A stretch of DNA of 64,000 nucleotides from an uncultured Oleispira sp. (GTDB lineage Bacteria > Pseudomonadota > Gammaproteobacteria > Pseudomonadales > Oceanobacteraceae): positions 248,001 to 312,000 of the forward strand of contig CAJXUD010000001.1 of assembly GCA_913061415.1 (NCBI GenBank), written 5' to 3'. The translations under genes were made by a program, and so were the position numbers. The notes under the pieces are model-generated. The model did no database searches and had not been told where the DNA came from. It saw only the letters and a list, made by a program, of their open reading frames with translations. How positions within the stretch are numbered: position 1 is the first letter of the stretch; each line of letters begins with the position of its first letter. Shown in pieces: positions 1,017 to 60,361 of the stretch.

Positions 1017-1508
1017 CTAAAAATGCATCCTCATAGAGATCGCGTAGCCATCGCTCGCCAAAGGCTTGGATAGTGAATATTGCCATTCTCCGGCTCTCGG
1101 CTCACCTTGATAGATCCCCCAAGCGGCTTCTGCAGCTACTTTAAGCACATCGACTGTCGCCAGTTGATCATTATTGAGGTGTACGGTATCAGACCAGTGA
1201 GTGTAAGGGTCGTGCTGCTCGCTCCACTGCTGATGAATATCATCGTTAGTGCTTTCGTCTGCATAGCAAGGAGAGAAGGTAAAAGGCGCGCACAAGCAGG
1301 TTAAACAAGCCGCACAAGGTTTTAACCAGCTTTGTCGACGTAAGGCTCGATTAAGATCTTTCTGCTCAATAAACCCTAAAGCCATTAAGCAATAACCCAC
1401 CGGTTTATTATGTCGCGCTTGATATTGCAGCGCGAGCTCAAGCTGCTGTTCTGTTATGACTTGCTTAGCTAATAGTATTTGGCCTAATCGTACTGGAATT
1501 TCCGACAT
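1017..1508 (-). CDS. Small protein with N-terminal MshEN-like (T2SS/T4P ATPase N-domain) fold
   Basis: This 163-residue protein has no close family I can name. Residues about 5-60 (VRLGQILLAKQVITEQQLEL, then KPVGYCLMALGFI and KDLNRALRRQ) have the repeated L-x2-G-x-L-L...I-x3-Q-L-x2-A-L pattern of the MshEN/GspE N-terminal domain. In type II secretion and type IV pilus ATPases that domain can bind c-di-GMP. No ATPase domain follows. Instead there is a cysteine-rich hydrophobic stretch at about 64-84 (CAACLTCLCAPFTFSPCYAD) and an acidic tail. The ATG at 1508 has only a poor ribosome binding site. It is a monocistronic gene. A free-standing c-di-GMP-binding module is an inference. Confidence 0.6.
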   Translation of the reverse strand: MSEIPVRLGQILLAKQVITEQQLELALQYQARHNKPVGYCLMALGFIEQKDLNRALRRQSWLKPCAACLTCLCAPFTFSPCYADESTNDDIHQQWSEQHDPYTHWSDTVHLNNDQLATVDVLKVAAEAAWGIYQGEPRAGEWQYSLSKPLASDGYAISMRMHF

Positions 1509-1826
1509 TAGGAGCCCTAGGTAAGTGTGTTATTTGAGTTCTTATTTAAAGATTGGCATAAGATCAAAAATTAACCAGAAACTTTACTTAACAAATGGTA
1601 ACTCTATGTAATATCCGCAGAATAATGGAACGTCCGATGTATTTACTAAGGTATTGATTTTCTCAGCGGGACAATTCAACGGGACAATTCAACGAGACAA
1701 TATGGTCAGTAGTGGGGCGTCAAAGTGCGAGCATTTATAAGAGTAGAAATAAATAGAGAGAAGCTTGAAAGGTATGATTTAAGAAGGTACAAAAGAAAGA
1801 GAGAGAAAAAGAGGAAGTAAGGGCAG
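1509..1826. other. Intergenic region without a recognisable gene
   Basis: No convincing coding frame is seen here. The plus strand is purine-rich at about 1740-1820, giving a pyrimidine-rich tract on the minus strand just downstream of the proposed regulatory RNA. It also holds the 13-bp tandem repeat at 1668-1701. A 68-codon open frame on the minus strand (1706-1912) overlaps the RNA hairpins and looks spurious. Confidence 0.5.
1668..1701. repeat. 13-bp tandem repeat, 2.6 copies
   Basis: GGGACAATTCAAC occurs at 1668-1680 and again at 1681-1693, followed by a partial third copy GAGACAAT at 1694-1701. It is non-coding and probably arose by local duplication. Confidence 0.85.
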
Positions 1827-1983
1827 TTTTCTAATCCTTTAGAAAAGTAAGACGGGTCAACATCCTGTTTAACCCGTCTCAGCACCCTAGCAGCCATCCA
1901 GTTGGCTAACATTCTTCCTTGAAGCAGTCCTTGGCAATATTGTTATCCTTAACCGTTACATCCTGTAACGCTGCCGTCCTTGT
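1827..1983 (-). ncRNA. CsrB/RsmZ-type CsrA/RsmA-sequestering small RNA (predicted)
   Basis: Read on the minus strand from about 1983 down, this stretch has eight GGA motifs in about 150 nt. Five have the A-N-GGA form. Several sit in hairpin loops. CGTTACA-GGA-TGTAACG (1970-1954) is a perfect 7-bp stem with GGA as the loop. AGCCA-ACTGGA-TGGCT covers 1907-1892. AGACGGGT pairs with ACCCGTCT (1879-1850) around an inner AACA-GGA-TGTT, followed by the U-rich TACTTTTCT. TTTTCTAA-AGGA-TTAGAAAA covers 1846-1827. AAGGA motifs lie between hairpins. This is the architecture of RNAs that titrate CsrA/RsmA away from mRNA leaders. The 5' end is inferred from a GacA/UvrY-type box centred at 2162, about 180 bp upstream. 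The 3' end is uncertain: either after the hairpin at 1850 or within the pyrimidine-rich tract down to about 1790. Confidence 0.75.
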
Positions 1984-2148
1984 GTTAATAAAGTTAGCAG
2001 AATGTAAAAAACTGAAAAGCCTTTGTTTGTATTATTATTTTCCGGTAAGTGTTTTGTCATTAATAAAATCGTTATATATCAATAGCTTATGTTTTTCACT
2101 GCAGCTCATCAGCCGATAGTCGTAGACGTTTGATGACATAATCCCACC

Positions 2149-2176
2149 TGCCGTGTGAGATATATCTCACACGGCA
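2149..2176. promoter_or_regulatory. Perfect 28-bp palindrome containing a GacA/UvrY-type box
   Basis: Bases 2149-2162 are the exact reverse complement of 2163-2176. The inner 18 bp (2154-2171) read TGTGAG-ATATAT-CTCACA. This matches the known activator box for csrB/rsm promoters (TGTAAG-N6-CTTACA, with TGTGAG as the left half in the enteric version). It lies about 180 bp upstream of the proposed RNA start, the usual distance for rsm genes. A further half-site TCTCACACG (2188-2196) repeats the right arm 23 bp downstream. It could also act on the plus-strand gene beginning near 2264. Confidence 0.7.
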
Positions 2177-2263: not shown

Positions 2264-3088
2264 GTGGATTCATTGTGCTGTTTTCTAGCGGAAGAAGGCT
2301 TTCTTTTTCTAAAACGAGGTTATTTGCCCTTTTTGAGCACCACGGATATGCCAGAACCTTGGCTTTATTCTGATTGTGCTTATGTCATGGATGAATCTTC
2401 GAAAAATGTATCGGCTCAGGACTATCGACGCTTTTTGCAGCAGCAATATAAGAATCTACCGCAGTCATTAAAAGACCTGATGGATTTTGATTATTTTGAG
2501 CAACAATCCGAAGCAAAGCGAGAGCAGATAGAACAGACGCTGATAGAGCAAAGGCATCAATCAGATGCAATTGCGCCGTTCTCGGCAGAGGAATTACAAG
2601 ATTGGCGAATACTGCCTCTGTATGAATCTTGGCAAAATGTGCAGCTCTGGCATCTGGCTGCCAATAAAGGCAAAGGGCTGGTGATTGAGTTTGCACGCTC
2701 AGAATCGGGTTTTCAGACACAAAACGATGGAGAGCAGCGCCAGCACTTAGCCAAAGTTAAGTCGGTGGATGCTTGGTTGCCAGATGACGCGCTTTATTAT
2801 TTATTCAATCGACCGCAGCAAGGCGACCAAGAACATGATGAGTGGCGCTTAGTTCGCCCTTTAAGCAGTGCAGATCGTCTAGTGAATATGAATAAGCGAT
2901 CAAAAGCTATGTATCGCCTGCCTGATAAAGCGGTAAATCGCGTTATTCTAGGGTATCGATGCAGTCAGAAATATTGCCAACAGGTAAAGCATTACCTGTC
3001 TCAAGATATAAACTATCGACACGTAGAGTGCGTGCAAGCGCAATTAGATCCTAAAACCCTGTGCTTGCAGCTAGTGACGATTAAGTAG
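2264..3088 (+). CDS. DUF2971-like protein
   Basis: The protein has 274 residues from a GTG at 2264. It shows the marks of DUF2971: an N-terminal FLAEEGFLFLKRGYLPFLST segment (usual pattern: a short hydrophobic strand then a strand ending in a polar loop), WHLAANKGKGLVIEF (usual W-x2-Y-x4-G-x-hydrophobic-F), DEWRLVRPL (usual W-x2-E-x-E-R), and VNRVILGYRCS (usual I-x-G). DUF2971 proteins are often near defence or mobile genes; their biochemistry is not established. The start is unsettled. The frame stays open upstream to a stop at 2231, with no ATG. An overlapping frame beginning MNPVTVFKVFIRGF at 2230 would join by one frame change near 2275-2285, so a frameshift is possible. Confidence 0.6.
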   Translation: MDSLCCFLAEEGFLFLKRGYLPFLSTTDMPEPWLYSDCAYVMDESSKNVSAQDYRRFLQQQYKNLPQSLKDLMDFDYFEQQSEAKREQIEQTLIEQRHQSDAIAPFSAEELQDWRILPLYESWQNVQLWHLAANKGKGLVIEFARSESGFQTQNDGEQRQHLAKVKSVDAWLPDDALYYLFNRPQQGDQEHDEWRLVRPLSSADRLVNMNKRSKAMYRLPDKAVNRVILGYRCSQKYCQQVKHYLSQDINYRHVECVQAQLDPKTLCLQLVTIK

Positions 3089-55558: not shown

Positions 55559-58500
55559 CTAGGCCTTTATGTAACGATTTAAAAGAGGCTCTAATACTTG
55601 AGCTGCATCTTTATAATTTAATGTTGTCAAGCTAACGTCGAGCTCTTGGAATAATGTTTCACCTAAGGCTTCATGTAATGACTGCTTAGAATTTTCGATT
55701 ATTTCGATTACTCCTAAATCCTGCTCTGATAATAATGTTAAAATGTGTTTTAGTGTTTCAATTTTTAATTCAGGGGCTGATGAGGTTTGAGATAATTCTG
55801 CGCTCTTCATTTCTTTCCAGCTGTCTAGTATTGATGAGCTAGCCTGTTTAAGGCTGCTTAACTCTTTGGAAAGATTGATAAGGACTTGCTGTACAGGCCT
55901 GCCACCTGATCGTAACAATTCTTCAGCATCCGCAGAGTATTCTTGTATTTTTTCAGCACCAATCATTCCTGCAGAACTTCTAAGCTTATGTATTTGAGAT
56001 GCCAGTTGAAGGCGCAGATCTTTGTGTTCTAAATTATCAAAATCGTCAGCGGGAGGGTGACATAGATTCTCATGCTCGAGTAATAGACCGTCAAGCGTAC
56101 TCAATAGAAGTTGCTTGTCGTTAAGTAATAGGCCTTTTGCTTTGTACATATTAAGCCCGCTAATTTCTGGCCATTGGTTACCTTCAGTATCAGAAGACTG
56201 GATGGATTCAATTGCTAACAATTTTTCTCGATAAGACTCTACTAGAGTGCGTAGAACGTTTATTAACTTAGAAGGATCAATCGGCTTCGTCAGAAAATCA
56301 TTCATGCCAGAGTCAAGTGCACGTTTCTTTTCTTCTAATAATGCGCCCGCAGTGAGGGCAATAATAGGCACATTTACGAGCTTTAATTGCTGACGAATTC
56401 TGCGGGTTGTCTCAAGGCCGTCGAGACCTGGCATCTGAACATCCATCAATATCGCATCATAATTATTCGAAGAATCTTCTAATAACGTAAGTGCTTCTTC
56501 ACCACTGGATGCTGTCTGCACAATAGCACCGTTATGCTCTAGAATATGGCTGACAACAATCAAATTTATCGAACTATCATCCACAACCAATACCTCGACA
56601 TTCGGTAGCCACTTTGCCGCCACTGCTTGAGTATGAGTTGATTGCATAACACGCTTAGCATTGCCTGTTGTTGAAGTCACAATGTCATTCACCGAATTAA
56701 AAAGCGTTGATGAGTTAACCGGCTTCATTAAGAAGTTATTTACCAGGTGCTTAGAATCATGCAAAATAATTTCATTTTTATCATGGGCCGAGATCATCAA
56801 AATAGCCGGCAGATTATCGATTCCAACATGATCAGCCAACGACGCTATGGCAGTTATTCCATCCATGACAGGCATTTGCCAATCAACAATCATGGCATCT
56901 GGTGGCCGTAACTTATTTTCTTGGCGACCTAAATAGGTTTTAACAAGTTCATCACCATTTGTGACTACCTCTGAGCGCCAACCTAGGGCGCGAGTCATTT
57001 TTTGCAGTTGTATTGCATCTGCGGGGTCGTCTTCTGCAATAAGCACAAACAGTGTCTGGTTTTGGTTATCTTGCATTACAATTTCTTCAACCGATTGCAC
57101 TTTAAATGTGAGATCAACCCAAAACTTGCTGCCTTGATTGACGGTGCTTTCAACACCTATCTCTCCCCCCATTATTTGCACTAGTTGACGCACAATAGAT
57201 AATCCTAACCCCGTCCCACCGAAGCGGCGAGTTGTACTGGAATCTGCTTGGGTGAAAGGTTTAAACAAATGAGTTTGAGCGTCGTGTGAAATGCCAATCC
57301 CTGTATCTTTGACAGAAAAACGCACGTTAATGTGGTCTGCTGGTAATTCGCTTTCATTAGACATAACCTCTACACAGATGGTTATTCTACCAATGGTTGT
57401 AAACTTTAGAGAATTACTGAGTAAATTTCCTAAAACTTGTCGTAAACGAATACTGTCAGAAATAATCCAAGAAGGTAGGTTGGGGTCTAGCTCAGAAGTG
57501 AACTCCAAATTTTTGGCTTCTGCTTGTATAGAAAAAACGCCGGATATTTCTTCGATTAATTCTTGTAACTCAACCGGATTTTCTTCTATCATCATCTCGT
57601 CGGCTTCAATTTTAGCCAAATCTAAAACATCATTAACGATACCTAATAATGACGTACCTGATATTTGAATTTTTGATACTAATTGATGTTGAGCGTTAGT
57701 TAATGGCTCTTCTGCTAACAGATACCCAAGGCCTATAATCGCATTTAGTGGTGTTCGAATTTCATGGCTGGTATTGGCTAAAAAGGCACTCTTTGCTTCA
57801 GTAGCCTGCTCCGCTTCTCGCAACGCTGTTTGCAACTTTTTTTCGGCCATGAGTCGCTCAGAAATATTGCGAACGGATGCAGATATAGACATCTTATCGT
57901 CCAAATTGATCGAACTTAAACTGACCTCAATTGGAATTTCATGACCATTAGCATCCAGGGCTAATAGTTCGATGCCACGATCTACATTTTTTTCTTTAAC
58001 TTGATTCAAGTAATCAGCAATACGACTTTTATAACGATCTTTCAGGTGATTGGGCACGAGCTTTTCGATAGAACACTGCTCTAATTCTTTTCTAGGATAG
58101 CCAAACATGGTTTCAGCTTGGGCATTGATCATTTGAATAATGCCAGAGTCATTGACTACTAAGGTGGCATCTGGAGCAGATTCAAGTAGGCCTTTAAAGC
58201 GTGAAATCTCTTCGGCTCTTTGCGACTCAATTTGTGCTTTCATGTTATCGCGATGGCGAATGATACCGCTTAACCAGATCCAGTACTGAACCATAAGGCT
58301 AATACAGTACACAAACAATAGTGAAACAATAACACCCGTTAACTTGATTGCAATTTCTTTAAAGACTATAAATTGAGGCGTTGCGCTATAAATCTTAAGA
58401 ATACGATCGTCTGATGTTTTACTGATAGGCAGAGGGGTATGCTTAGCAAAAATATACCCTTGATGACCGCTATAACTGATCAGATCATAAGGCTTAAAAT

Positions 58501-60361
58501 TATTGAGTAGTGTTGCAGGCGTATACTCATCTTGCCAGCGGTAGGGATGAGCATGGTCAAACGAAAATGCTTTAAACTTCTCGGGATGGAGTAAAAATTC
58601 ATCTAAAGTATTCGTAATGTAAAGCTGATTATTCTCGGCAATATTATTTGTCGTGTGAGTTAAAACATTTTGTGCATTAACATTAATAATAATGATACCA
58701 AATGGGCTGCCGTCAGGATTAAAAAGTGGCGTAGAGAAACGCCAAATAGGACGATAGGGCCTCTCCACCTTGTCTAGTTCACGATTTAAATTCATGTCTG
58801 AGGTAAATACACCGCCCAAGCCCGCTTGAAGCGTTGCTCCGATATAAGGCTCATTTTTCTTAGATTGTAATTGCCCAACCTCAAAGGTTTTTAACTCTTC
58901 ACCATTGCGCTGTACTTTCACATGCTCTTGCCACGTAGCATCAGCACGAATAAAGCGCACCTGATGCACATCGGTTTTAGAAAGCATATAAGCCTTAAAA
59001 ATATTGGCGAGCCCTTCATTTAATACACCGACAAAGGCTTTATTTTGAGCAGCGGAAGATTGATTATTGTTAGCTGTAATTAAAGAATTTATAACGGGGG
59101 TGCTGGCAAGAAATAATACATCACGACGGTATTTTGTAGCCTCATCCTCAAGCGCGGTAATTGCGGAATCTTTGGTGATTGAGAGATTATCACTAACCTT
59201 GTGCAGAGTATTCTGAGCGATCAACCAAGATGCAAAAAATAATATAAATCCGAAAAGGATCAGTGTAGAAGGCACTGATTGCTTGAATTGAGCACTTTTC
59301 AAAAAAACGACAACGCTCTGGATGCTGAATTGATGAGACAACGTGTCGATATCTTCTGTTACATGTTTAGCACGCAACACATGATTGATGAATAAAAGAC
59401 AAAAAGTGAGCATTAAGCCAAGCAGTAAAATCCAACTGATATTCCAAGGTTTAATTTGGTTAATCATCTTTTTTGAAGGTGACAATAAAAGTTGCCAGCT
59501 TTGACCCAATACATAAATGTTGCGTATTCTTTGGTAGTACTGAGCATGACTCGTTTGAGGGAGTTTGGAAAAATAGAAGGGTTCGTTGTCTGCGGTATTG
59601 GTTAACGTTATCTGCGCGTTGTCTACTTCAGATTCTAGATTGGCTAAAACGTCATCGATAACTAATGGGGCATATGACCAACCTAATACATACTTTTCTC
59701 TGGAGTCAATTGTGGCTAGATTTACACCTGTAGGGTAGACGGGGAGTAATACCAATGCACCCTTGCGTGTTTTGTTGTTTGCCTGAACCAAGGTAATAGG
59801 GGCTGTTAAATAGGGTGTATCATTGCGAGCGGCTGCTAAGGCAGCCGCTCGTCTATTTGACTCAGAGCCAATATCAAGCCCCAGTGCTTGTTGGTTTTTA
59901 TCAAGGGGATATATATGCTGAATAACAAAGCGGTCTTTGTCATGAGGTATTAATGTGCGGATGCTGAAATCAGGCAATCCTAGTGTTATGCGTGTTTCTT
60001 CAATAAATTCGCTTTCTTTGTCGATAGGGACTCGACGTATATAACCAAACCCCAATGCGCCCGGAAACTCTTGCTCAAGATTCCTGTTATTACTGTATTC
60101 TTCAAACTGCTCACGATTGATCTTATTGACCCCTACCGCTGACATGGCCCCACGTACACTGCGTAGACCGTATTCAAAATGCCGAAAACGCTGATTGATA
60201 AGTGCTTCAGTTTTGTTAGCGATGTCATTTGTGTATGACTTAACTTCGTATTCATTGTGGTAATTAAGGCCCCAAGCAATCGCCAGTGTTAGAATGATAC
60301 CGCTAAGTAATGGCAGCCAATAGGTGGCCATGTTTGCTTTTTTAGCGTCTTCAATGCTCAT
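55559..60361 (-). CDS. Hybrid sensor histidine kinase (CHASE, cache, PAS, HisKA, two REC, HPt)
   Basis: 1600 residues. Order: transmembrane helix (14-32), a CHASE-like domain (about 60-270), further helices near 303-325 and 361-381, an extracytoplasmic cache-like region (about 390-670), a helix near 675-697, a PAS domain (about 720-835, SAPDATLVVNDSGIIQMINA), HisKA with the phospho-His at 866 (SHEIRTPLNA), an ATPase domain, receiver 1 (D1160), receiver 2 (D1307) and an HPt domain with H1458 (IHKLRSSAG). It can thus form a complete internal phosphorelay. Its start overlaps the stop of the upstream PDE gene, and a REC-GGDEF gene follows, so it likely phosphorylates that cyclase. Two external sensor regions suggest two signals. 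Confidence 0.93.
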   Translation of the reverse strand: MSIEDAKKANMATYWLPLLSGIILTLAIAWGLNYHNEYEVKSYTNDIANKTEALINQRFRHFEYGLRSVRGAMSAVGVNKINREQFEEYSNNRNLEQEFPGALGFGYIRRVPIDKESEFIEETRITLGLPDFSIRTLIPHDKDRFVIQHIYPLDKNQQALGLDIGSESNRRAAALAAARNDTPYLTAPITLVQANNKTRKGALVLLPVYPTGVNLATIDSREKYVLGWSYAPLVIDDVLANLESEVDNAQITLTNTADNEPFYFSKLPQTSHAQYYQRIRNIYVLGQSWQLLLSPSKKMINQIKPWNISWILLLGLMLTFCLLFINHVLRAKHVTEDIDTLSHQFSIQSVVVFLKSAQFKQSVPSTLILFGFILFFASWLIAQNTLHKVSDNLSITKDSAITALEDEATKYRRDVLFLASTPVINSLITANNNQSSAAQNKAFVGVLNEGLANIFKAYMLSKTDVHQVRFIRADATWQEHVKVQRNGEELKTFEVGQLQSKKNEPYIGATLQAGLGGVFTSDMNLNRELDKVERPYRPIWRFSTPLFNPDGSPFGIIIINVNAQNVLTHTTNNIAENNQLYITNTLDEFLLHPEKFKAFSFDHAHPYRWQDEYTPATLLNNFKPYDLISYSGHQGYIFAKHTPLPISKTSDDRILKIYSATPQFIVFKEIAIKLTGVIVSLLFVYCISLMVQYWIWLSGIIRHRDNMKAQIESQRAEEISRFKGLLESAPDATLVVNDSGIIQMINAQAETMFGYPRKELEQCSIEKLVPNHLKDRYKSRIADYLNQVKEKNVDRGIELLALDANGHEIPIEVSLSSINLDDKMSISASVRNISERLMAEKKLQTALREAEQATEAKSAFLANTSHEIRTPLNAIIGLGYLLAEEPLTNAQHQLVSKIQISGTSLLGIVNDVLDLAKIEADEMMIEENPVELQELIEEISGVFSIQAEAKNLEFTSELDPNLPSWIISDSIRLRQVLGNLLSNSLKFTTIGRITICVEVMSNESELPADHINVRFSVKDTGIGISHDAQTHLFKPFTQADSSTTRRFGGTGLGLSIVRQLVQIMGGEIGVESTVNQGSKFWVDLTFKVQSVEEIVMQDNQNQTLFVLIAEDDPADAIQLQKMTRALGWRSEVVTNGDELVKTYLGRQENKLRPPDAMIVDWQMPVMDGITAIASLADHVGIDNLPAILMISAHDKNEIILHDSKHLVNNFLMKPVNSSTLFNSVNDIVTSTTGNAKRVMQSTHTQAVAAKWLPNVEVLVVDDSSINLIVVSHILEHNGAIVQTASSGEEALTLLEDSSNNYDAILMDVQMPGLDGLETTRRIRQQLKLVNVPIIALTAGALLEEKKRALDSGMNDFLTKPIDPSKLINVLRTLVESYREKLLAIESIQSSDTEGNQWPEISGLNMYKAKGLLLNDKQLLLSTLDGLLLEHENLCHPPADDFDNLEHKDLRLQLASQIHKLRSSAGMIGAEKIQEYSADAEELLRSGGRPVQQVLINLSKELSSLKQASSSILDSWKEMKSAELSQTSSAPELKIETLKHILTLLSEQDLGVIEIIENSKQSLHEALGETLFQELDVSLTTLNYKDAAQVLEPLLNRYIKA

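Follow-up and report, generated by a model that had tools for sequence, protein, structure and literature searches.

CsrB of Escherichia coli and Salmonella (Rfam RF00018) carries many CAGGA-type motifs in hairpin loops and titrates CsrA. In E. coli the csrB promoter is preceded by an 18-nt UvrY palindrome (TGTGAGAGATCTCTTACA) centred at -183/-182, with an IHF site between palindrome and promoter, and without IHF about tenfold less CsrB is made (PMC4682653). In Marinomonas mediterranea, also a marine gammaproteobacterium, the BarA/UvrY-type pair PpoS/PpoR activates the GGA-rich sRNAs CsrB and CsrC, which lie behind a GacA box and are expressed according to RNA-seq (PMC8523701). The marine alkane degrader Alcanivorax dieselolei possesses the CsrA-related sRNAs CsrR1 and CsrR2, the latter with six unpaired GGA motifs (PMC9788540).

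Here, we describe a locus in 64,000 nucleotides of DNA from an uncultured Oleispira species (this whole stretch is called the window below) that, judged from its DNA, very probably encodes an sRNA of the CsrB/RsmZ type, a predicted CsrA sponge. It resembles CsrB in its motifs and loops, in a putative role in CsrA titration and in the layout of the promoter, where a far-upstream palindrome and an IHF-like site between it and the promoter are found. It differs from CsrB in being much shorter (about 160 nt with eight GGA motifs, compared with a model of 356 positions). With Pseudomonas RsmY and RsmZ it shares the GacA-type palindrome and the probable involvement of IHF, whereas the Rfam models of these RNAs do not match it and its far-upstream palindrome is csrB-like. 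Both its size and its number of GGA motifs fall in the range of Pseudomonas RsmZ. The Marinomonas RNAs, compared here by description, are present in two copies and are longer (about 456 and 655 nt for the regions counted; PMC8523701). CsrR2 has a different context since it adjoins a ferredoxin gene, an arrangement conserved within Alcanivorax (PMC9788540).

The Rfam scan at gathering thresholds returned a tRNA as its only match. The CsrB model scored 16.2 bits on the locus against a gathering cut-off of 71 (E 0.044 for 1.1 kb), the search of the whole genome with this model gave no match, and neither RsmY, PrrB_RsmZ nor any other Csr/Rsm model of Rfam matched the region at E values up to 10. 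A sequence-only reading of this DNA had proposed such covariance-model searches. No Csr/Rsm model reaches its cut-off, which holds for all seven family loci scored with CsrB, but the Oceanobacter homologues are significant though sub-threshold for CsrB (L043 with 55.7 bits, E 2e-12; L052 with 35.1 bits, E 3.6e-6). Because the RNA and clearly homologous members of its family score far below the CsrB cut-off, the Rfam models cannot decide the case, and annotation based on cut-offs would miss this sRNA. A search for literature on Oleispira or Thalassolituus together with CsrA or small RNAs found nothing relevant, though supplementary prediction lists may exist elsewhere. The RNA is best filed as a functionally CsrB/RsmZ-type, uncatalogued addition to a known class that lies outside current Rfam coverage. 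It is not a new kind of system, and a gammaproteobacterium that has GacA and CsrA would be expected to possess such an RNA.

Architecture of the locus

The sequence-only reading had described eight minus-strand GGA motifs in region 1827-1983, three hairpins displaying some of them (a 7-bp stem with a GGA loop, an 8-bp stem with an AGGA loop and a terminator-like hairpin with GGA) and a GacA/UvrY-type palindrome upstream, and all of these were recovered at the positions compiled in the table.

Features of the predicted sRNA locus and its surroundings, with positions in the window
Feature	Position	Strand	Sequence or basis
CsrB/RsmZ-type sRNA gene, predicted	1826..1985	minus	8 GGA, 7 AGGA; conserved in four other genomes of the genus; -10 box just upstream
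7-bp hairpin, whole loop GGA	1954..1970	minus	CGTTACAGGATGTAACG; fold, arms CGTTACA-GGA-TGTAACG
8-bp hairpin, AGGA loop	1826..1845	minus	TTTTCTAAAGGATTAGAAAA; fold, arms TTTTCTAA-AGGA-TTAGAAAA
3' hairpin, terminator-like, GGA loop (ACA-GGA-TGT)	1848..1881	minus	GACGGG..ACAGGATGTT..CCCGTC; family-wide compensatory changes
Box just 5' of the 3' hairpin	1879..1888 (within a few bases)	minus	TAGGGTGCTG; common to the family
Extended -10 box, predicted	1991..1999	minus	TGCTAACTT (family form TGCTATCTT); conserved in relatives
IHF-like site	2077..2089	plus	TATCAATAGCTTA; 13/13 to WATCAANNNNTTR
GacA/UvrY-type palindrome	2154..2171		TGTGAGATATATCTCACA; 18/18 match to TGTRAGN6CTYACA
Neighbouring gene, 163 aa, MshE-type c-di-GMP-binding domain	1017-1508	minus, same strand as sRNA	NF053729, 58.1 bits against a cut-off of 38; syntenic, outside the sRNA

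The first G of the motifs is located at 1979, 1963, 1948, 1930, 1918, 1899, 1865 and 1837, and all are AGGA with the exception of TGGA at 1899. With seven AGGA per 170 nt the region represents the maximum of the window, the next best place reaching three per 170 nt. When the 755-nt intergenic stretch was shuffled with its dinucleotides preserved, at least eight GGA occurred in 30 of 5000 cases and at least seven AGGA in none of 5000, so that the AGGA cluster lies far above chance. The region folds better than its shuffles (z -2.5), and in the predicted fold the GGA bases are unpaired with a mean probability of 0.78 compared with 0.23 for the other G residues and 0.54 for GGA in shuffles, of which 6 of 300 attained such a value. 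Multiple GGA/ANGGA motifs, many of them in loops or single strands, are one mark of CsrA/RsmA-titrating sRNAs, and they are present here.

The transcript is predicted to run from about 1985 to about 1826, which gives a length of some 160 nt with both ends deduced from the DNA. A start near 1985 is suggested by the -10 box proper at 1996-1991. At the other end the 3' hairpin comprises 13 pairs and is followed by CTTTTCT; clearer T-runs follow this hairpin in several other genera. In Oleispira only a weak U-run is seen, so that the 3' end can be placed only approximately.

The promoter shows a fixed geometry. In relatives the extended -10 reads TGCTA[AT]CTT, and where a -10 was recognized the palindrome is nearly always centred 162-165 nt ahead of it (173 in one case). 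The spacing is equal in all five Oleispira genomes, where two copies of the palindrome have one or two mismatches. In each of the 18 promoters checked, the palindrome is followed at 63-64 nt by an IHF-like site scoring 12-13/13.

Conservation in the genus and the family

The host genome (3.65 Mb) belongs to Oleispira in the GTDB sense, the family of which we take to be Saccharospirillaceae; close relatives are Thalassolituus, Oceanobacter, Bacterioplanes and Parathalassolituus. A DNA search found the sRNA region in four of five other Oleispira species with 77-91% identity, and the fifth genome, the one without a match, has a completeness of only 71%. When the five members are aligned, none of the eight GGA triplets varies in any contig that covers it, and the flanks diverge. 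The relatives have nine GGA each, apart from seven in G001, where the contig breaks off within the 3' hairpin. Throughout the genus the 7-bp hairpin with its GGA loop shows no variation but a single A-to-G exchange, which leaves a G-U pair, and CTAAAGGAYTAGAA of the AGGA-loop hairpin recurs in each of the three relatives with contigs extending that far.

In the wider family the 3' module of the RNA is shared: all 21 aligned sequences have GGGTGCTG of the box unchanged, and six of the 13 pairs of the 3' hairpin have changed on both sides. The covariation score of the hairpin is 0.304, a value that none of 500 shuffles reached (mean 0.146), and 88% of cells are paired compared with 35-49% when the structure is slid along the alignment, the GGA loop being invariant. 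The comparison with related genomes that had been proposed thus shows a covarying stem, that of the 3' hairpin, as well as retained GGA loops. A pattern scan of the genomes of 84,980 species for the signature of TAGGGTGCTG plus GGA-loop hairpin gave 28 matches, 22 of them in Oceanospirillaceae/Saccharospirillaceae-type genomes with GGA arrays upstream. The remaining six come from unrelated organisms; they lack a palindrome, and inspection showed nothing like the array in them. The 3' module was also built into a covariance model (R1), which matches in 33 of 44 family genomes covering all eight genera. It misses eight of nine genomes of one genus, and the single weak match there (L105) appears to be a homologue that has diverged. 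Weak R1 matches outside the family (L106-L109) were set aside as ordinary-looking hairpins without GGA arrays.

The locus is also syntenic. The order cysZ-trmH-RNA-tRNA-Thr is common to the related genera, and in nearly every relative the RNA is flanked by cysZ (on the opposite strand) and trmH on one side and by tRNA-Thr(TGT), again on the opposite strand, on the other. At this place Oleispira has 8-9 GGA motifs, Thalassolituus-type genomes have 12-17 and Oceanobacter-type genomes about 25-30; the homologues checked from other genera carry 11 to about 30. We lean towards regarding the Saccharospirillaceae RNAs as a separate Csr sRNA family outside Rfam that has a fixed promoter and 3' cap and an expandable middle offering 8-9 to about 30 CsrA sites. 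The lineage would thus tune the capacity of its CsrA sponge by gain and loss of GGA hairpins at one syntenic locus. This range offers a natural experiment on the evolution of sponge capacity, and the alignments and the covariance model permit annotation and testing throughout the family.

For the host genome, searches covering copies with a palindrome, an AGGA cluster or the R1 module revealed no second Csr RNA. One of eight GacA-like palindromes precedes an AGGA cluster, namely the one of the present locus, R1 matches in one place only, and the remaining AGGA triplets are scattered or belong to tandem repeats without a longer chain. A tandem AGGACCTATTTATTA repeat is shared by G000:C6:9-57 (at a contig end) and G000:C20:44217-44265 of the same genome. 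Three other loci, L007 (around 1500-1860, minus strand), L008 and L014, share an IHF-like element (AACATAAGCTATTGATATATA) and carry repeated AACAATAAAAATAACAA motifs as found in the Crc/Hfq-titrating RNAs CrcZ and CrcY; they stay below the Rfam cut-off for CrcZ, the search for which gave sub-threshold matches only.

Alternative readings

The GGA-rich stretch could be the 5' leader of the gene at 1017-1508, the mRNA of which CsrA would then regulate in cis. This gene lies on the same strand, and its homologue is found 3' of the RNA on that strand in most, though not all, relatives. Nevertheless, the RNA is kept at loci where no such homologue was found downstream (e.g., L041, L043, L047, L048, L049 and L052), which favours a trans-acting RNA. 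The distance between RNA and gene varies from about 200 to 700 nt, the conserved terminator-like hairpin (with a clear T-run in several genera) stands between them, and the array far exceeds the needs of a leader. We therefore consider this reading improbable.

That a purine-rich stretch has acquired fortuitous hairpins near an unrelated palindrome by chance has next to no probability: the bare GGA count did recur in some of the shuffles mentioned above, but the AGGA count never did, and conservation in relatives, which already refutes this reading, is joined by covariation, by synteny and by the constant spacing of the promoter elements within the family. A short protein-coding gene is just as hard to believe, because the mechanical open reading frame at 1706-1912 (68 aa, minus strand) has lost its ATG in four of four relatives and is broken by single-base gaps in the genus alignment, so that no conserved protein exists and the sequence-only reading was right in finding no frame to explain the hairpins.

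Proposed function and regulatory context

With high confidence we regard a trans-acting Csr/Rsm sRNA of about 160 nt, driven by Gac and IHF and sequestering CsrA, as the best explanation of the locus as a whole. The partners of such an RNA are encoded in the genome. CsrA is nearly identical to chains solved as CsrA, its first 52 residues being identical to one of them in the alignment, and the GacA orthologue reaches 314.6 bits with the NCBIfam UvrY/SirA/GacA model (cut-off 280). The best hybrid kinase of BarA/GacS-like type spans the BarA model with 815.7 bits, just under the NCBIfam cut-off of 890, and represents the third partner of the Csr class. Together with the conserved GGA loops and the lack of a conserved frame, this set supports the earlier assignment to the CsrA/RsmA-titrating class.

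In the proposed mechanism a signal would activate the BarA/GacS-like kinase, which would lead to phosphorylated GacA of the UvrY type. Phospho-GacA may then bind the palindrome, and IHF, by bending the DNA at its putative site, could bring GacA to the extended -10 promoter. The transcript would offer up to eight GGA sites, several of them as hairpin loops, and would sequester CsrA dimers away from mRNAs; expression of target genes and the physiological output would be expected to change as a consequence.

A link with c-di-GMP had also been suggested before, and it gains a concrete basis in the gene that follows on this strand (1017-1508), the product of which has an MshE-type c-di-GMP-binding domain. 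A functional connection between c-di-GMP and Csr via this protein, kept beside a Csr RNA, is possible. For Oleispira and its relatives (Thalassolituus, Oceanobacter, Bacterioplanes and others), which include major oil degraders of the sea, the predicted RNA would supply the regulatory RNA of the Gac/Csr switch, conserved with a switch-like promoter through a family of marine, often oil-degrading bacteria.

Two further genes of the window deserve mention. Divergently from the sRNA, positions 2264-3088 (plus strand) encode a 274-aa protein without Pfam or NCBIfam match that is kept in the genus and in several relatives with 24-65% identity. At 55559-60361 (minus strand) a hybrid histidine kinase of 1600 aa is found that comprises CHASE, PAS, HisKA, HATPase, two receiver and Hpt domains.
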